This document shows positions 53,720 through 61,852 of a DNA stretch of 64,000 nt, piece after piece. The position numbers were made by a program, and so were the translations under genes. Source of the stretch: Lachnospiraceae bacterium. GTDB lineage: Bacteria > Bacillota > Clostridia > Lachnospirales > Lachnospiraceae. The notes under the pieces are model-generated. The model was not told the DNA's origin. It worked only from the letters and a program-made list of their open reading frames with translations, and did no database searches. Every line of letters begins with the position of its first letter. Within the stretch, counting starts at the first letter, position 1. Where the stretch lies: the NCBI GenBank assembly GCA_017441295.1, contig JAFRYA010000035.1, positions 1-64,000 of the forward strand. Reading direction: 5' to 3'.

Positions 53720-53753
53720 AAAAAACAGAGGGTGTGAATTATCACACCCTCTG
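53720..53753. terminator. Terminator of the giant surface protein gene (bidirectional)
   Basis: A 12-bp perfect stem CAGAGGGTGTGA-TAAT-TCACACCCTCTG (53726-53753) followed by TTTTTT on the minus strand, 13 bases after the stop. It also lies 31 bases after the converging dut stop. Confidence 0.9.
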
Positions 53754-53766
53754 AATTATTAAGTTT

Positions 53767-56700
53767 TTATTTCTTAAGATCTTTCTTTCTGGACACCGCC
53801 AAAGTTACTATACCCGCTGTAAGCAGTGCATTCCATACAAGCAGTACAATAATAATCCACCATGGTACATTGCTATTTGCCGGTGTTTTAATTGTCTCCT
53901 CACCCGAAGCCGTTTCTATTCTGATCTCGCCGCCTGTCTTAGGTATACTCTCTTCTTTGATCGTGATCATTGATCCGTCTCCGTAAGACTCCACACTGTA
54001 TTCTTCTTCAGTAATCTCCTTGCCGTTAATATAAATCTTTGAGATTTCTGAACTTGAAGTATTGAAGTAGTAGGTCTTAACTTCACCTGAGGTTTTTATT
54101 GTCTGAGACTCTGACCTGACGTTTCCTGCGTTAATCTCTCTGCCGTCGCTAAGCGTAACGATCAGATCTCCATTTACAATGCGTACATCGGCAATTCCAA
54201 CTCCGTCCTTTCCATTTACGCCATCTTTGCCGTCCTGGCCGTTGGTGCCATTTCTTCCGGCTGCTCCGGTTGCACCTGTAGCACCTGTAGCGCCTGTTGC
54301 TCCTCTGGCACCGGTATCGCCTTTAGCTCCGGTTGCGCCTGTCGCACCGTTCTGGCCATCATTACCGTCTTTTCCGTTTTCACCATTTGCAACTGTATAA
54401 GTCGATGTGGTGCCGTCTGAATAAGTGATGGTGAATGTATCAATATTGCCTTCTGTAGCTGTTTTTTCAATTGAGACAATACCTCGTCCATCCTCACCTT
54501 TATCACCTTTCTCACCATCTTTTACATAATATGTATATGTAGTACCGTCTGAATACTTAAATGTATATTCAGTGGTCAGTTCATCTATTCTCTCACTGCT
54601 GATGCTTATCAGAGATATGCCTTCGCCCCTGAGAGACGCCAGCCATTCCAGAACGGTGCCTTCAAAACCATTTTCTACAGCCAGTTCATATGCGCTCTTT
54701 CCATCCACGCCGTCACGGCCGTTTCTTACGGTAAATGTATACATGTCACCATTTGACATCGTAATAAGATAGGTGTCGAGATATGGATCTGAACCGACCT
54801 CAACCTTTTCGATGGAAACAATGCCGTTGCCGTCTTTACCATTTGTGATTGTATAACTGAAAGTTTCTCCGTTGGAAAGCGTGATGGTGTATGTATCAAC
54901 CAGTCCGTCTTCTGATGTGCCGGTCTTCTCAATCTTTTCAACGCTTACTCCATCAGTGCCGTTGGTAACTGTGAAGGAATACTCCGTACCATCTGTCATG
55001 GTAATAGTGTATGTATCTTCATTTCCATTTTGTTCGGTTCTTTCAATTGAAGCAATTCCGACACCATCTACTCCGTTGGTTACATTAAATGTATAGCTGC
55101 TGCCATCGGTATAATAAATTGTATATGTATCAACCAGTCCGTCTTCAGATGTTCCGGTATGTTTAATGTAATCAACTCCAATGCCGTTTCCATGCAGCGA
55201 TGCGATCCATTCAGCAGCAGTTCCTTCAAAACCGTTCAGTACAGCAATTTCGTATGCGGACAGGCCGTCCTGGCCGTTTGCGCCATTTACTACTGTAAAA
55301 GTCTCTACAGATCCGTCGGTGTACGTAATCGTATAGGTATCTGTCAGGCCGTCTTCGGATGTTCCTGTCTTTTCTATCGAAGCGATTCCGACACCCTGTT
55401 CACCTTTCTCGCCCTGTTCGCCCTGTTCACCCTGGTCACCTTTCTCGCCATTAGTTACTGTAAATGTGTAGTAAGAACCATCAGTGTAATAAATTGCGTA
55501 TGTGTCGATCAGGCCATCTTCGGATGTTCCAATTTTTTCGATACGGTCAACTCCTATTCCGTTTCCGGTCAGGGATGCGATCCACTCCGCTTCTGTTCCC
55601 TCGAAACCATGCAGAACAGCTATTTCATAAGCAGACAGGCCATCTGTTCCGTTAGTAACTGTAAAAGTAGAAGTTGTTCCATCTGTATAAGTTACTGTAT
55701 AGGTGTCAACATTGCCCTCTGTTCCGGTCTTTTCAAACGATTCTATTCCACGTCCGTCTTCACCGTCTGCTCCATTGTTTACAGTGAATGTTGAATAACT
55801 GCCATCGGTGAAATATATTGTATATGTATCAATCAGCCCGTCTTCTGATGTGCTTGTCTTTTCAATCTTTTCAATACCTATTCCGTTTCCTGAGAGTGAA
55901 GCAATCCATTCAGCTACAGTACCTACAAATCCGTTTTCCACAGCCAGCTGATAAGCGGACTTTCCATCTTCTCCCTGAGGGCCCTGCTCACCCTGCGGAC
56001 CTTCCGGACCGCCGATTGCCGGTACATAGAAGACCTGATTGGACCAAATGCTTTCAAGCTCTTTTCCGCTCGGAAGATCAGTTGCTGATGTAACAACGAA
56101 CTGGTACAGATTGCCTGATGAGTCATCCAGATTGTCCTGAGATATTGTGAAGGAAGTTGTGCCTGCGGTAATACGTGTATCGTTCAGACGTATATATTCG
56201 CCGCCAACTACCTGATATAAATAATATCCATCAACTGAGTCCGCATGTTCATCTTCCCATGAAAGGATAAATGTTCCATCGTCATATGATACTGACAGTT
56301 CAGGAGGCTGCGGAGGCATTGAAAGCTGTGCTACCTTGTATCCGTATACAGGAACATGTGAGTTGTCCCATAAGCGTTCTTTCATTTCTTCAGGATCTTC
56401 AATATCATCATACGCGGTTCCGCCTCCGCCGGTACCCATATCAACGTACCAACGGCCAAAGGACCAGAAGAACTGATATGCACGGATAATATCATCTGTA
56501 AGTCCCATTTCTTTCAGCGCTCTCTCATCCAGGTCATTTACGGTACCTGATACTGTATTACCTCTTGTAGTGGTCTCATAATGGCATGTGCCCTTGAGGA
56601 AATCCGCTGATACATAGAAGCCTGCACGCGCGTCAACCAGACCTGCGAGGCCAACGCCCCATGTACTGGAGAAGTTGATTGAGAAGCCTCCCGAGAATCC

Positions 56701-59259
56701 TTCTCCTTCAGTAACATACTCCGAATGAGCATACTCCTGCGTCTTGGAAGTACCGCTGTATCCCAGCTGCATATCTCCCATATTAGACAGTTTCTCTGCA
56801 TCAGTCAGATCTCCGTTGTTCCAGTCATTAAGGTATTCTTCCGGATTGCCTTCGTTTCCGACAAGATACTCGCCGTTCTCAGTGCTGCTGGTGTCAGTAT
56901 CAACGATTTTCTTAAGCACAGGAGGTTTGTATGAGTAATTCTGTGCTTCAGCTTCTGCTTTAAGAGTCGCTGCCAATGCATCATATTCATCAACAAAACT
57001 GTTATAGTCTTTGACGCTGAGCTGACTCCAGACAGGTCCCAGAGGCATTGGTACCTGAACGAAGTTTTCAAGCCACTTACCATTTTCTGCGTCATACATA
57101 TCGTAGTTATATAAAACTATAGGTGTTCGCTGAATAAGAACAGTGTTCTGGTTTGTCGTCTCAAACACAGAATTGTAGCTTGTCTCCCAGCCTTTCTCCC
57201 ATTCCCAGGTGTAGTTGAATGCTGCGCCTGCTTCAATTGCCAACTTTGCAGACGCCAGGGCTGAAACCTCAGCTTCTCCAGAGAATCCTACACCCCAGTC
57301 AAGTGATGTGGTCGTATTGTCATTCTCTCCGTATGTAGTGTCTATAGAATATGATGTACTGCCCGGATCCTGTACCCCGTCAAAGAATGGTGCTGCCTGG
57401 AGCACTGCTTCGATCTTTGGATCGGTATAGATGTAATTCTTGCCCCTGTAGCGCAGACGCACACCATCTGTATCCTTGTCTATGGCCGTGACAATCGTAT
57501 GACAAGCACGCCAGTCACCACTGTCATAGCCATCAGCATCGTTCAGCAGGTAATCGTCATGATCAACATCAGTACAGTAGAATCCGCTGCCTGTTACGAT
57601 TCCCAGCATGTCATCAGTGTCGTTATAGGTGGCTCCGATCATACCTATCTTGTAGCCGTAGGCTTCCATTTCGTTATGCTTAAGTGCAACAACATAGTAG
57701 ACCTGTTCTCTGCCAATGTCGTTATGATCGAAATTACCTACTGCGACATCACTGACCCATGCATTTGATACTGATACACTTCCCATTCCAATGTCCGTGT
57801 GATTGAAGTATTCCGGGGTATAGGTGACAGATACGCCTCCATCAGGGTTGTAAGTCATAATCTGTCCGTTAAAGAATATCAGGTCCTTGCCGTTTTGGCC
57901 GTTAAATGCTACGGTTGCCACAGAGGCGCGCGGATGTGATCTGTCCTTCACGTAATATCCACGTGTGATCATCTTGTTCATTCCGGGATCAGTCAGGATA
58001 ACTTCCCGTACGCTATTACTGCTATTTAACTCATATATACCCAGAAGCTGGGCTTTTATATGCTGATATCTGCCACCGTCTTTACTGCGGAAGTGATATC
58101 CGCCTACTACAATCTCATTTGTGCCATCGCCGTCCACATCGCCTACGGATACTCCCGGTGACTGGAAGGTCAGACGATAAGAATTGCCGTCCTCTGAGTA
58201 GTCATTATAAAGATACTTTGTGGTGTGGCTGTGGCTAAAGACGGAGGAAGTGCTGTTTGGAACGCCGTAGTAAACATACATTTCGGTCTCTCCGTTCCCC
58301 TTCTTTGGCGCGGTGGTTCCCGTATCTGTCTCTCCGGTTTTTCCGGTTACAATTATCAGCTCGTCGGCATCGTCGCCGTTCAGGTCACCGGCCGCCAGAG
58401 AAACGGTATTGATATATTCAGTAGTACTCAAATGTTGAAGTTTCAATGATCCTATACGACTAAGCTCACGATTGATATGGTCATACTCAAACAGTATTGT
58501 ATACGATCCGGTTTCGTCGCTGTCGTCACGAGGCCTAAAAGTGGCTGCCATGACAAGAGTCTCATATCCACGGCCAAAGTCACCCGCGGTCACCGATATG
58601 AAAGCATTTGCCGCATAAAGATCATTTGTCCAGTCATCATTTCTGGTATAGATCGGCTTGTACTCTTTCCACGTACCAGCTGAATTCTTTTCCCATAGTT
58701 CAACCTTTGTACTTGTGGTTTCATTGTCTAATGACGGTTCGACCGTCCACAGATAGTAATCATTCTCCTCAGGATCGAAACCAGCGTAAGCTACAACGTC
58801 CCTGCGGCCGTGGCCTTTCTTGTCGAAGGCTACGCTTTGAATATAGGTCAGATTAGAGCAGCTGATCGGGAAAGTACCTGTGGAACCAAATCCGCTGAGG
58901 GCTTTGCTCTTCTCACTCCCTTTGTCCTTTTTGTACCATTTGAGTTTATGATAATCATTTTCATAATCCTCTACCAGCACTGCCAGCTCATTCCACGGAA
59001 GCATCAACGTTCCTTCGGATGTTCCATTCTCATCATAGGCTGCACCATAAGGGTTGCTGGTATCTCCTGGCGCAAAGCCTTCTGGATCTGTCCCGTCAAT
59101 ATTAAGCAGCTGGCTGCCTGTTACGGTCTCGGTTAGTTCTTCTTCCGAGGAATTATCTGCACGGGCAGTCGTCAGGCTTCCCGGGATTATGCCCAGTATC
59201 AGAGCCATAACCAGCAGTGGGCCAAATACCTTTTTCATCAAACTACTGTAGACTTTCAT
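53767..59259 (-). CDS. Giant repeat-rich surface protein (FG-GAP-like, fibronectin III, collagen-like repeats, C-terminal anchor)
   Basis: 1830 residues, secreted and membrane-anchored. Signal peptide about 1-35. Residues about 60-640 contain several FG-GAP/VCBS-like Asp motifs (AAGDLNGDDADELIIV, SVGDVDGDGTNEIVVGGYH), suggesting a calcium-bound beta-propeller. Residues about 660-960 are a Ser/Gly/aromatic-rich beta region, followed by a fibronectin-III-like domain (about 990-1085). Then come about ten 35-40-residue repeats of the form GIxSIEKTGTSEDGLxDTYT, four SAYELAVENGFEGT modules and collagen-like G-x-y stretches (GATGATGAKGD). A single C-terminal helix and basic tail anchor it. Start has GGAGGG. 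Overlaps the small membrane protein gene by 17 bases. Confidence 0.88.
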   Translation of the reverse strand: MKVYSSLMKKVFGPLLVMALILGIIPGSLTTARADNSSEEELTETVTGSQLLNIDGTDPEGFAPGDTSNPYGAAYDENGTSEGTLMLPWNELAVLVEDYENDYHKLKWYKKDKGSEKSKALSGFGSTGTFPISCSNLTYIQSVAFDKKGHGRRDVVAYAGFDPEENDYYLWTVEPSLDNETTSTKVELWEKNSAGTWKEYKPIYTRNDDWTNDLYAANAFISVTAGDFGRGYETLVMAATFRPRDDSDETGSYTILFEYDHINRELSRIGSLKLQHLSTTEYINTVSLAAGDLNGDDADELIIVTGKTGETDTGTTAPKKGNGETEMYVYYGVPNSTSSVFSHSHTTKYLYNDYSEDGNSYRLTFQSPGVSVGDVDGDGTNEIVVGGYHFRSKDGGRYQHIKAQLLGIYELNSSNSVREVILTDPGMNKMITRGYYVKDRSHPRASVATVAFNGQNGKDLIFFNGQIMTYNPDGGVSVTYTPEYFNHTDIGMGSVSVSNAWVSDVAVGNFDHNDIGREQVYYVVALKHNEMEAYGYKIGMIGATYNDTDDMLGIVTGSGFYCTDVDHDDYLLNDADGYDSGDWRACHTIVTAIDKDTDGVRLRYRGKNYIYTDPKIEAVLQAAPFFDGVQDPGSTSYSIDTTYGENDNTTTSLDWGVGFSGEAEVSALASAKLAIEAGAAFNYTWEWEKGWETSYNSVFETTNQNTVLIQRTPIVLYNYDMYDAENGKWLENFVQVPMPLGPVWSQLSVKDYNSFVDEYDALAATLKAEAEAQNYSYKPPVLKKIVDTDTSSTENGEYLVGNEGNPEEYLNDWNNGDLTDAEKLSNMGDMQLGYSGTSKTQEYAHSEYVTEGEGFSGGFSINFSSTWGVGLAGLVDARAGFYVSADFLKGTCHYETTTRGNTVSGTVNDLDERALKEMGLTDDIIRAYQFFWSFGRWYVDMGTGGGGTAYDDIEDPEEMKERLWDNSHVPVYGYKVAQLSMPPQPPELSVSYDDGTFILSWEDEHADSVDGYYLYQVVGGEYIRLNDTRITAGTTSFTISQDNLDDSSGNLYQFVVTSATDLPSGKELESIWSNQVFYVPAIGGPEGPQGEQGPQGEDGKSAYQLAVENGFVGTVAEWIASLSGNGIGIEKIEKTSTSEDGLIDTYTIYFTDGSYSTFTVNNGADGEDGRGIESFEKTGTEGNVDTYTVTYTDGTTSTFTVTNGTDGLSAYEIAVLHGFEGTEAEWIASLTGNGIGVDRIEKIGTSEDGLIDTYAIYYTDGSYYTFTVTNGEKGDQGEQGEQGEKGEQGVGIASIEKTGTSEDGLTDTYTITYTDGSVETFTVVNGANGQDGLSAYEIAVLNGFEGTAAEWIASLHGNGIGVDYIKHTGTSEDGLVDTYTIYYTDGSSYTFNVTNGVDGVGIASIERTEQNGNEDTYTITMTDGTEYSFTVTNGTDGVSVEKIEKTGTSEDGLVDTYTITLSNGETFSYTITNGKDGNGIVSIEKVEVGSDPYLDTYLITMSNGDMYTFTVRNGRDGVDGKSAYELAVENGFEGTVLEWLASLRGEGISLISISSERIDELTTEYTFKYSDGTTYTYYVKDGEKGDKGEDGRGIVSIEKTATEGNIDTFTITYSDGTTSTYTVANGENGKDGNDGQNGATGATGAKGDTGARGATGATGATGATGAAGRNGTNGQDGKDGVNGKDGVGIADVRIVNGDLIVTLSDGREINAGNVRSESQTIKTSGEVKTYYFNTSSSEISKIYINGKEITEEEYSVESYGDGSMITIKEESIPKTGGEIRIETASGEETIKTPANSNVPWWIIIVLLVWNALLTAGIVTLAVSRKKDLKK
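54190..56000 (-). repeat. Coding repeat array of the giant surface protein
   Basis: Roughly 110-bp units encoding the TDGSxxTFTVxNGxDG type beta repeat recur ten times, interspersed with four units encoding SAYE(I/L)AVxxGFxGTxxEW and with collagen-like triplets. The densest Gly-Ala-Thr triplet run is near 54265-54345. Repeats are diverged, not identical, at the DNA level. Confidence 0.8.
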
Positions 59260-59608
59260 TATCGTTCTCCCTCCTATTATTTTCTTCTTTGCCGGTAAAT
59301 GATTTTTCCTTTTTTTTCTTCTGCCAGTTTATACACAAAACGGTAAATATCACGGCAACCGTAAAAGCAATGATCGCGACTAGCACATAACCGCCCGTGC
59401 CTTCAAACAGCATTATCGATCCGCTGTACATTCCGGCTGCTCCGGCACTGTGCGTTCTGCCGGCAGTGAAAATCAACAGGAATAGGCATATGGTGAGCAC
59501 AACCCCGGCTGTACCGATAAGTGTTGTCTTCCGGCGGTTCTTCATGTTCTGCCTAGCATTCATTCGTACATGCAGGGCGTTGACTCTGTCTTCTGCCGTC
59601 CTCATCAT
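59243..59608 (-). CDS. Small two-helix membrane protein B (paralogue of the sigma-linked protein A)
   Basis: 121 residues. The cytoplasmic N-terminus MRTAEDRVNALHVRM matches MRTSEERVKELHYRM of the protein at 60947-61282. Two transmembrane helices (about 31-51 and 74-95) flank a short Gly/Ala/Ser loop (HSAGAAGMYSGSIMLFEGTGG). The tail is basic, then acidic. AGGAGG precedes the ATG, and the gene overlaps the surface protein start by 17 bases, so the two are translated together. An anti-sigma-like role is inferred from its paralogue; it could also be a chaperone or sensor for the surface protein. Confidence 0.75.
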   Translation of the reverse strand: MMRTAEDRVNALHVRMNARQNMKNRRKTTLIGTAGVVLTICLFLLIFTAGRTHSAGAAGMYSGSIMLFEGTGGYVLVAIIAFTVAVIFTVLCINWQKKKKEKSFTGKEENNRRENDNESLQ

Positions 59609-59649
59609 AAATTCCTCCTTCCTGAATAGTCTTTCACTTATTAAGTGTC

Positions 59650-59669
59650 AAAAAGCCGGGTAAAACCCG
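59650..59669 (-). other. Second hairpin in the leader of small membrane protein B
   Basis: CGGGT-TTT-ACCCG followed by GCTTTTT on the minus strand. A TTGACA overlaps its T-run, and the palindrome CACTTA-T-TAAGTG lies just downstream (about 59632-59644). Termination or promoter control here is possible. Confidence 0.4.
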
Positions 59670-59691
59670 AACCTCTGCCAAAAATTTTTTA

Positions 59692-59715
59692 TAAAAAAAA
59701 GCCCCTTACGGGGCT
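59692..59715 (-). terminator. Terminator after the PrsW gene
   Basis: AGCCCC-GTAA-GGGGCT (59700-59715) followed by eight T residues on the minus strand, 10 bases after the PrsW stop. It separates the sigma-PrsW operon from the surface-protein operon. Confidence 0.85.
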
Positions 59716-59725
59716 AATCTGTTTC

Positions 59726-60349
59726 TTAACTGATTCTTTTCCGGAAAAAGACCATATATAAGAGCACCAGTGTCATCGGGATAACACTGCCGATCCAGAA
59801 TACAACACCGGACTGATTAACGAAAATATTAAAAACAGCATGGAAAATAATTACAAAACACAGCAGCGCAAATGCACCTACTATCTGCAGCCATATCTTG
59901 TTCCACAGATAGAACAGGCCGACAGCAATGATCATTCCGCAGACGACATGCATAGCCCCGGTCCCAAAGCCGCGGATTATGAGACGCAGCAGATCCGAAG
60001 TGCCGTAATAAGTTATAAAGCATACATTTTCGAATGTTGCAAACCCTACTGCCACCAACAGGAATCCTGTAATGGCGACCTTCTTCTCCGGCTCAAATAC
60101 CAGAATAAAGAACAACATAGGAAGAAACTTAAGTATTTCCTCAACTACCGGAGAAATCTCATGGGAAGCCTCGATCAGATCTGCTCCCGCTGCACCAGCC
60201 AGAAATGTGTTGACGTATGCAGAAAGCAGGCAAACAGTCATACCAGCCAGCAAAAAAAGCAGAGCTCTGCGGCCTTCCCTTCGAAGACATATGATTGCCA
60301 GTATAAGTGGCGCGGCCAAACATATATAAATATTCTCAATATAATTCAT
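59726..60349 (-). CDS. PrsW family intramembrane metalloprotease
   Basis: 207 residues from the ATG at 60349, which overlaps the preceding stop (ATGA) and has GGTGG upstream. About six to seven helices. Family motifs are intact: E70-E71-x-x-K74 (VVEEILKF), E107 in FATFENV, H134 in FGTGAMHV and H170-x3-N174 in FHAVFNIF. In Bacillus subtilis PrsW makes the first cut in anti-sigma factor RsiW. The operon here contains an ECF sigma factor and a two-helix membrane protein, so the same role is the leading hypothesis. Confidence 0.88.
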   Translation of the reverse strand: MNYIENIYICLAAPLILAIICLRREGRRALLFLLAGMTVCLLSAYVNTFLAGAAGADLIEASHEISPVVEEILKFLPMLFFILVFEPEKKVAITGFLLVAVGFATFENVCFITYYGTSDLLRLIIRGFGTGAMHVVCGMIIAVGLFYLWNKIWLQIVGAFALLCFVIIFHAVFNIFVNQSGVVFWIGSVIPMTLVLLYMVFFRKRIS

Positions 60350-60963
60350 TCTTCCACCGCCTTTTTTGTTGCAGGAAGAAAGATTGCTGCACTGACTGTC
60401 AACAGGAAATCGAACCAATAGTATGGATTTGTTAATGTGTCCGAAGTCCAGAAGCATGACGCTGTCCATAGTCCATACTCCAAAAGACAGAACACCAGGA
60501 TCATAATTGATAAAAAAATCTGATTTTTATAAATCTTCCAGTCGATAAATCTACATATTACTGAGAAAAGCAGCAACCCCATCAGTGAAGCATATATAAT
60601 GTTGCTCAGAATCTCACCACGCAGGATAAAGAAGACCGCCATGGCCACAGAAAAAATAGGTCCCAGCCACGGAAGCGCGCGCAATCTACTGGTTTTGACC
60701 GGAGGTGCGGTCTGTATCAGCAGCATATATAGAAAGATATACATGGCATACCAGCTCAGGTCTGATACTACAGAAATCTTAGGCGTGTCGCCAAAGAAAA
60801 TCAGGCACACCAGCCAGTAAATATCTCCCAACAGAAAACTTCCATAGAAAAAGAACAATATCATCCATTCCCGGCTTTTTCTTGTAATAGTCGGGTACAG
60901 AGAAACAACAGCACAAATTATCAAAGCACCGATCTGCAGCGCGTTCTCAATGCTTTCGATCAT
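60346..60963 (-). CDS. Unknown polytopic membrane protein (about seven helices)
   Basis: 205 residues from the ATG at 60963, behind GGAGGG. Seven or so hydrophobic segments with many aromatics (YWLVCLIFFGD, WYAMYIFLYMLLIQ) and no recognised enzymatic motif. It is wedged between small protein A (17-base overlap) and PrsW (4-base overlap), so it is coupled to both. It could be a sensor for an outside signal or part of the proteolysis complex. I do not recognise the family. Confidence 0.7.
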   Translation of the reverse strand: MIESIENALQIGALIICAVVSLYPTITRKSREWMILFFFYGSFLLGDIYWLVCLIFFGDTPKISVVSDLSWYAMYIFLYMLLIQTAPPVKTSRLRALPWLGPIFSVAMAVFFILRGEILSNIIYASLMGLLLFSVICRFIDWKIYKNQIFLSIMILVFCLLEYGLWTASCFWTSDTLTNPYYWFDFLLTVSAAIFLPATKKAVEE

Positions 60964-61282
60964 TGTATTTTCCCTCCAGGTGCTTGCGCATCCTGTAACA
61001 GAACACTGTAACCAATGCCCCCAGACAGAATGCCACCAGGGCAATTATCACATAACCTAAGACTGCGTTGCCGGCAAAAATACTTGCCGAAGCGCCTGAA
61101 TTACCTGTAATCTGATATTGGATAGGAGTCTTGGAAACCGCGATTATTATTATGATAATCACTGCAGCGCAAAAAGCACATGCAGCAGCACATTGCAGCA
61201 TATATCTGCGTAATGCTTTACTTCTTTTCTTTATGTCCATGCGGTAGTGCAGTTCTTTCACACGTTCTTCAGATGTCCGCAT
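60947..61282 (-). CDS. Small two-helix membrane protein A, putative anti-sigma factor
   Basis: 111 residues. N-terminal cytoplasmic MRTSEERVKELHYRMDIKKR, first membrane helix (about 28-48), a short outside loop (PIQYQITGNSGASASIFAGN) and a second helix (about 72-95), then a basic tail. It begins 14 bases before the end of the sigma gene, with AAGGAGG inside that gene, which is the common position of anti-sigma genes. Paralogue of the protein at 59243-59608. No zinc HxxxCxxC motif of classical anti-sigma domains is present, so the role rests on context. Confidence 0.75.
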   Translation of the reverse strand: MRTSEERVKELHYRMDIKKRSKALRRYMLQCAAACAFCAAVIIIIIIAVSKTPIQYQITGNSGASASIFAGNAVLGYVIIALVAFCLGALVTVFCYRMRKHLEGKYNDRKH

Positions 61283-61826
61283 GAGTAATTCCCTCCTTCT
61301 CCAATTCCTTTCGAAGCCTTGCCTTTCCGTTCTTCAGCAGATCTTCAATTTTCTTTGTAGAGCCGCCCATAACTTTTGCAGCCTGAGCATAACTCATATC
61401 CATAAAATAAAACAGCCACAGCGCTTCCCTGTATTGCGGTGCAATACGGTTCAGGCACCGCTTTAGAACAGCATTTTGCTCACTTCTTAAGCAGTTATCC
61501 TCAGGAGAAATATCCCCGCTCGGAATCGCCTCATCCAATGCCTCATCCGGGCTGAACTCCTGCCTCTTAAATCTCATCTTCCATAAGTGATTTGCCTTGT
61601 TTCTGGCCATTTTGAACAGATAGGCCCGAAAGTGTCCTTCAGAGATCCTGGGCTTGTCCACCAAAATAATGGTGAAGCAGTCCAGCATCAGGTCTTCCGC
61701 ATCATGCGCATTATGGAGGAAAGCATCCAGATATGCTGTAAGCACATCACCATAACGGAGCATCAGCTCATCGCCGGCTTTTAAGTCGCCGGACAGATAT
61801 TTTTGATATAACTGATCATCCGTCAC
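61269..61826 (-). CDS. ECF-type RNA polymerase sigma factor
   Basis: 185 residues from a GTG with AAAGGAGGG upstream. Region 2 (about residues 10-85: NAHDAEDLMLDCFTIILV and GHFRAYLFKMARNKANHLWK) and region 4 (about 125-175: YREALWLFYFMDMSYAQAAK and GGSTKKIEDLLKNGKARLRK) are present, with no region 1 or 3, the ECF layout. First gene of the operon with small protein A, the polytopic protein and PrsW. It begins 32 bases after icd, with a TATAAT at 61847-61852. Confidence 0.88.
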   Translation of the reverse strand: MTDDQLYQKYLSGDLKAGDELMLRYGDVLTAYLDAFLHNAHDAEDLMLDCFTIILVDKPRISEGHFRAYLFKMARNKANHLWKMRFKRQEFSPDEALDEAIPSGDISPEDNCLRSEQNAVLKRCLNRIAPQYREALWLFYFMDMSYAQAAKVMGGSTKKIEDLLKNGKARLRKELEKEGITHADI

Positions 61827-61846: not shown

Positions 61847-61852
61847 ATTATA
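61847..61852 (-). promoter_or_regulatory. Candidate -10 of the ECF sigma operon
   Basis: A perfect TATAAT on the minus strand, 20 bases before the GTG start and overlapping the intergenic region after icd. The -35 is poor (TAGCAG at 17 bp). Readthrough from icd is also possible, since I see no terminator between the two genes. Confidence 0.45.

Follow-up and report, generated by a model that had tools for sequence, protein, structure and literature searches.

An 8-kb locus of a Lachnospiraceae bacterium, read within a stretch of 64,000 nucleotides (the window), raises the question whether an ECF-type sigma factor (SIG), two small membrane proteins (A and B), a PrsW-family protease and a giant surface protein (SURF) form one regulatory system. 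The original prediction, made from the letters alone, was that A holds SIG at the membrane, that PrsW destroys A upon an outside signal, and that SIG then drives B and SURF. All six frames on which it was built (the sigma factor, A, a polytopic protein, PrsW, B and the surface protein) are found on the minus strand at the positions and with the overlaps it gave (Table 1). In the direction of transcription they run SIG, A, C (the polytopic protein) and PrsW, followed by a terminator-like stem, a promoter, B, SURF and a second terminator; the stem-loop and T run at 59715-59700 agree with the terminator that had been placed between PrsW and B. The first four genes each run into the next (SIG into A by 14 nt), and B overlaps SURF by 17 nt. 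Thus the locus appears to consist of two translationally coupled units, SIG-A-C-PrsW and B-SURF. The assumed paralogy of A and B also held: a search with A matched B with an approximate E-value of 6.6e-10 and 30% identity over 103 aa.

Table 1. Features of the locus in order of transcription (positions in the window).
Feature	Position	Strand	Basis
Possible sigmaA-type -10 of the SIG operon, TATAAT; -35 weak	61847..61852	-	Read directly; weak match in the window
SIG, ECF-type sigma factor, 185 aa, GTG start	61269..61826	-	Open reading frame; Pfam Sigma70_r2 and r4_2 over cut-off; sigma70-ECF superfamily TIGR02937
Protein A, 111 aa, two transmembrane helices (TM), basic 28-aa N-terminal segment with R..EERV..LH.RM	60947..61282	-	Open reading frame; topology from the positive-inside charge pattern in 66 relatives
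Protein C, 205 aa, seven transmembrane helices, no Pfam family	60346..60963	-	AlphaFold2 pLDDT 94.7; kept in 55/56 loci
PrsW-family intramembrane metalloprotease, 207 aa	59726..60349	-	PF13367; catalytic residues invariant in 35
Intrinsic-terminator-like stem, then T run; end of the SIG-A-C-PrsW operon	59700..59715	-	Sequence
ECF-like promoter of the B-SURF operon: GGTTCGGG (-35 block), 11 nt, TTTTTGACACTTAATAAGTGAA (-10 block and start region)	59633..59673	-	Top-scoring site of the 64 kb; window left out of the training
Protein B, 121 aa, two TM, paralogous to A (probable start 59605)	59243..59608	-	Open reading frame; search with A
SURF, secreted, membrane-anchored surface protein, 1830 aa	53767..59259	-	Open reading frame; signal peptide, domains, C-terminal TM
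SURF residues about 87-600: seven-bladed beta-propeller (FG-GAP/integrin type)	57460..59001	-	AlphaFold2 model; VIA-align Z about 22; weak FG-GAP matches
SURF residues about 1100-1690: collagen-flanked surface repeats and collagen-like stalk	54190..55962	-	PF19079, PF01391
Terminator-like 12-bp stem-loop and T run after SURF	53726..53753	-	Sequence

Absence of a conserved neighbourhood in related genomes had been named beforehand as grounds for rejecting the prediction; the same gene order in fact recurs across the phylum. A search with A alone over 150 genomes of the same family identified eight genomes (its own possibly counted), mostly with two matches 1.7-2.1 kb apart, and gene maps around these matches showed the order of the window. 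A combined A and B profile gave strong matches in 20 of 396 genomes of the family, further ones in the order, and others in 8 of 343 genomes of a class sample and, besides the own genome, 2 of 348 of a phylum sample, mostly as pairs; the two same-genus genomes listed were without a strong pair, and the distribution of the cassette is patchy. About 30 other genomes gave weak profile matches (E 1e-6 to 1e-3), which were discounted: most of them cover just part of the profile inside a longer, unrelated frame, and they are clearly separated from the true ones. The order SIG-(A)-C-PrsW-gap-B-SURF was seen at about 35 loci in 25 genomes. By an independent route, a PrsW protein alignment was scanned over 84,980 species, which yielded 200 relatives; 80 loci were fetched, of which 56 had enough flanking DNA for the components to be counted. 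SIG was present at 53, A at 48, C at 55 and B at 46 of the 56, in the order of the window, and a large open reading frame followed B in 30 of the 39 with room for one; about ten of the loci with room had no recognisable B, and several no large SURF. The carriers are mostly rumen or gut metagenome-assembled genomes labelled Lachnospiraceae, Clostridiales, Solobacterium, Erysipelotrichaceae and Mogibacterium, with Butyrivibrio sp. INlla21 and Lachnospiraceae bacteria G11 and AD3010 as isolates. Two points correct the original prediction: the polytopic protein can be specified as a seven-helix protein, and A is missing from some otherwise complete loci.

Some loci depart from the simple layout. 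Lachnospiraceae bacterium G11 (L098, L176) has tandem cassettes, of which the first is without A and the second carries a small surface protein with DUF6273 as its cargo. In another genome (G134, L038) a complete cassette is accompanied by one whose SIG points away from C-PrsW-B and in which a full A was not seen, so the operon layout can break up though the set stays together.

The question of what SIG transcribes was approached with a promoter model of two blocks (8 nt, a 10-11 nt spacer and 22 nt) trained on sequences upstream of B. An ECF-like site lies 27 nt upstream of B, and under a model trained without the window it was the top site in all 64 kb, at 26.5 bits versus 13.2 for the next unrelated one. 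In leave-one-cluster-out runs the region upstream of B outscored all other 300-nt windows of its locus for 15 of the 32 clusters (combined p 6e-19), and at 49 independent loci outside the training set it held the top site of the locus in 40 (combined p 2e-39). Before SIG the picture is different: none of 70 SIG upstream regions reached 16 bits, the highest in the first set being 14.2. Thus the SIG operon is very probably not an autoregulated ECF operon, which would have the same promoter before the sigma gene. A good sigmaA-type promoter precedes the SIG operon in 12 of 35 relatives (10-12 of 12 positions matching TTGACA/TATAAT).

The site was also looked for at genome scale. Across whole-genome scans of 21 genomes the B promoter was the first match in most, and in the own genome the -10 block was matched only once at three or fewer mismatches. 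Satellite B-SURF units that lack a SIG of their own have this type of promoter too, and the few additional sites checked include some before other secreted proteins in three genomes (L136 in G011, L138 in G533, L140 in G350); other weak matches of the model lie elsewhere. The genes at these three sites have no B and are likely extra regulon members. At a further locus (L155), also lacking B, the promoter (GGTTCGGG ... GGACAC) directly precedes a large secreted protein. One genome (G079) has one SIG cassette and two further B-SURF satellites (L031, L039, L041) with the same promoter and near-identical B; the three copies share the promoter, yet the DNA upstream of one of them (L039) differs, and the arrangement can be read as a one-to-several regulon. 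In some subclades the promoter signal is weak, and the -10 there differs (GACTCT type).

Moreover, the promoter follows the sigma factor in evolution. Once PrsW, C and B are controlled for, the promoter distance still covaries with SIG (r 0.32, p 0.001; the partial Mantel tests used here are liberal, and their p-values, like the E-values, approximate), while the same test leaves no residual link of the promoter to PrsW (0.05), C (-0.14) or B (0.02). The -35 covaries more with sigma4 than with sigma2 (0.25 versus 0.15), and the -10 more with sigma2 than with sigma4 (0.24 versus 0.10); in sigma factors, domain 4 contacts the -35 and domain 2 the -10. With a conserved promoter that covaries with the sigma factor, B-SURF has the marks of a sigma-dependent target operon. 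Since the promoter is conserved before B-SURF, absent before SIG and matched to SIG region by region, SIG very probably transcribes B-SURF and not itself. The claim that the sigma factor drives B and the surface protein thus passed a test that could have overturned it. Comparative evidence thus supports the gene order, the two transcription units and a SIG-dependent B-SURF promoter.

Two other explanations bear on this part of the argument. The conserved block before B might be a terminator or an RNA leader instead of a promoter, as its -35 part at 59656-59670 (minus strand) forms an inverted repeat followed by T (TCGGGTTTTACCCGG CTTTTTG), with similar structures at L208, L217, L198 and L200. 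However, many loci have the block without the inverted repeat, or with a separate terminator upstream; conservation extends 20 nt beyond the T run; the spacing is fixed; the two parts covary with sigma4 and sigma2 as described; and a search of the intergenic region against Rfam returned nothing of note. We regard this explanation as very improbable. The inverted repeat and T of the -35 part could double as terminator of the upstream PrsW operon. The neighbourhood as a whole might also be a chance gathering of ordinary membrane and surface genes, given that Clostridia commonly have ECF sigma factors, PrsW and large surface proteins. Against this stand about 100 loci in the same order across classes of one phylum, the specific promoter that they share, and the congruent distances of SIG, C and PrsW across loci (r 0.85-0.91), whose close agreement indicates that the set descends as a unit. 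Gene order, promoter and covariation already refute a chance gathering, to which we attach practically no weight.

If SIG serves B-SURF, what holds it back? A and B have no usable Pfam or NCBIfam family and no known anti-sigma domain over cut-off, and their weak matches to many unrelated TM families look like composition and were discarded. Both begin with a basic N-terminal segment averaging 27-30 residues; the two TM helices enclose an outside loop that is acidic and 24-28 residues long, and a slightly basic tail follows, a positive-inside pattern seen in 140 of 140 A/B proteins counted; thus both termini are predicted to be cytoplasmic. Conservation is concentrated in the N-terminal segment (R..EER...H.R) and from the outside loop into TM2 (ASIF...LGY in A, G..LL...GGYVL in B). 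A segment of this length differs from a class I anti-sigma domain (ASDI), a four-helix cytoplasmic domain (PMC7406223). The N-terminal segment of A is closer to B of its own locus than to other B proteins (z 8.2), and TM1 is not (z -0.7). This fits segments evolving in step, as expected with the same shared partner; gene conversion between the A and B segments would give an identical picture. In partial Mantel tests, again liberal, the N-terminal segments covary with SIG (A 0.17, B 0.24), and A covaries as strongly with PrsW (0.23), therefore covariation does not single out the sigma factor as the partner of A. Furthermore, 14 of 68 non-redundant SIG/B loci, dispersed across the tree, have no A; it was lost on at least five branches and, by parsimony, on up to twelve. 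Thus A is not indispensable and cannot be the sole inhibitor everywhere. It is B, not A, that stays with the target operon, satellite copies included. A and B are fairly likely to be anti-sigma factors; anti-sigma tethers cut by PrsW are the best reading, albeit unproven, and B may be a feedback inhibitor.

The protease itself is well preserved. Window PrsW scores 40.1 bits against PF13367 (cut-off 23.5), and the motifs that the original prediction called intact (EExxK, E, H and HxxxN) are all there, the second as FATFEN, in keeping with the family pattern of EExxK, FxxxE, H and HxxxN/D within membrane helices; the catalytic residues E70, E71, K74, E107, H134, H170 and N174 are invariant in 35 of 35 relatives. 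The genome also encodes one M50 site-2 protease. We consider it somewhat more likely than not that PrsW cuts A and B. PrsW-dependent toxin export, a type in which the PrsW domain is fused to a toxin or RHS protein (PMC3482391), was ranked low, as PrsW here is a stand-alone protein of 207 aa. A second, stronger PrsW-family protein (G000:C20:4906-5454; L001, L045) occurs in the genome, unlinked to a sigma factor.

Protein C has no usable Pfam or NCBIfam family, and profiles of C and of PrsW found no relative among PDB sequences. Its AlphaFold2 model has seven helices (pLDDT 94.7); among solved structures it comes closest to microbial rhodopsins and GPCRs (Foldseek TM 0.57-0.61, no E under 0.001; VIA-align Z 13.4, rmsd 4.0 over 181, about the level that helical bundles reach by chance). 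By eye, lysine is absent from the middle of the last helix, so C is probably not a retinal protein.

The target of the system is variable. Window SURF has a signal peptide, collagen-flanked surface and collagen repeats, and a C-terminal TM helix with an eight-residue tail. Among 77 SURF proteins, only about 18 besides that of the window share its first 1000 residues (24-70% identity); the remainder have MBG, Listeria-Bacteroides repeat, Big_2, fn3, LysM or DUF6273 domains, LPXTG ends, or nothing recognisable. Most SURF proteins have no C-terminal TM helix, or have LPXTG or LysM anchors; window SURF has IPKTGG near its end, well ahead of the TM helix, and other SURF proteins end in typical PNTGD/PKTGD. 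Thus the switch is constant, while the surface protein is exchanged between loci as cargo. In the AlphaFold2 model the N-terminal module of window SURF is an integrin-type beta-propeller, aligning with many propellers at Z about 22. The beta-rich part behind it includes two very long beta-hairpins with 30-35 residues per strand (residues about 634-701 and 838-908; 56536-57360), with low-confidence tips, weak amphipathic alternation and an uninformative fold search. A pore-forming role for the post-propeller region was considered but found no support, the beta-moment giving a mean z of just 0-1.8.

The same components could be assigned other roles. SIG might drive B-SURF while C, with PrsW, controls SIG, and A and B would be membrane chaperones or adaptors for the export or placing of SURF, cleaved by PrsW for that purpose. 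A is indeed evolutionarily dispensable and C nearly always present, B is translated with SURF and remains beside it in satellite units, and TM2 of A covaries with PrsW. But C is almost wholly membrane-embedded with short loops, which leaves little for sigma binding; A is encoded beside SIG and not beside SURF; B is related between loci at which SURF is unrelated, making a SURF-specific chaperone unlikely; and B also occurs without SURF (L038, L042). We consider such a division of labour unlikely, though it deserves attention. PrsW might instead shed or process SURF by cutting its C-terminal anchor, with the sigma factor merely setting the amount. Processing of exported proteins is a known or proposed task of PrsW (PMC3482391), and the TM anchor with its short tail in window SURF would suit this. 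Yet PrsW is invariant across loci where most SURF proteins offer no such anchor, and it sits in the SIG unit, with a terminator between PrsW and SURF; shedding is accordingly improbable.

We return to A and B as tethers of SIG. That they bind it, that PrsW cleaves them, what C does and what the signal is are all inferred, in the following scheme: i) SIG-A-C-PrsW would be expressed as one operon that is not under SIG's own promoter; ii) A (and B) would tether inactive SIG to the membrane through the short, basic segment at the N-terminus; iii) on a signal, for which the seven-helix C or PrsW itself is the probable sensor, PrsW would cut the outside loop of A/B; iv) the general M50 site-2 protease and cytoplasmic proteases would complete the degradation, freeing SIG; v) freed SIG would transcribe B-SURF from the ECF-type promoter; vi) B, made together with SURF, would recapture SIG and become the next PrsW substrate, giving negative feedback, and at loci without A, B alone would recapture SIG. 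Taken as a whole, we lean slightly towards this scheme, in which a membrane-gated sigma switch, complete in itself, serves a single surface protein.

Its parts have precedents. The SigW-RsiW-PrsW-RasP pathway of Bacillus subtilis, in which PrsW starts RsiW cleavage (PMC3482391), likewise relies on an ECF sigma factor, an inhibitor held at the membrane and two proteases, PrsW for site 1 and an M50 protease for site 2, and the release proposed here would likewise be by regulated intramembrane proteolysis. In contrast to that pathway, PrsW here lies within the sigma operon, which is without the sigma factor's own promoter; the candidate inhibitors are two two-TM paralogues without a zinc anti-sigma domain; one dedicated surface protein stands in place of a broad envelope-stress regulon; and there is an additional seven-helix protein. 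In another gut Clostridium, Clostridioides difficile, PrsW controls ECF sigma factors (CsfT-RsiT-PrsW; Ho and Ellermeier 2011, as cited in PMC7438776); an A/B pair, a C protein or a giant surface protein cassette is not known from that system. SigM of B. subtilis is restrained jointly by the small membrane proteins YhdL and YhdK (PMC6827917). Two small membrane proteins can thus share the restraint of one ECF sigma factor. YhdL and YhdK are encoded in one operon with SigM, whereas A and B are paralogues split between sigma operon and target operon, with PrsW alongside. For the short-peptide role of A/B, CnrH-CnrY offers a precedent: CnrY, of the class II anti-sigma type, is a small membrane protein whose very short cytoplasmic peptide can hold an ECF sigma factor (PMC7406223). 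CnrY, unlike A/B, uses two helices and works without PrsW, and a sequence relation between them was not found. SigI is not an ECF sigma factor, RsgI senses via its own large outer domain, and PrsW is not known from the SigI-RsgI cassette. The likeness there lies in a dedicated sigma factor with a membrane partner that controls surface or extracellular machinery, present in several paralogous copies per genome of cellulolytic Clostridia (PMC6056542).

The cassette is described in no paper that our literature search found, and the ECF group of SIG may already be numbered in a published classification. Tentatively, this widespread cassette might represent a new class of ECF control, with a 28-residue tethered peptide as the whole anti-sigma module, feedback from a constitutive A and a sigma-induced B, a seven-helix receptor with a PrsW gate, and use as an interchangeable driver for giant surface proteins. 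If the proposed switch is correct, a very small candidate anti-sigma peptide would be combined with a feedback design of one constitutive and one induced copy, and PrsW would be placed in a well-defined natural setting, a single 8-kb locus that also encodes the two candidate substrates and a candidate receptor and has a promoter that can be read. The promoter rule would make targets predictable from sequence, and gut and rumen Firmicutes would carry a recurring module that times the display of a giant adhesin-like protein.
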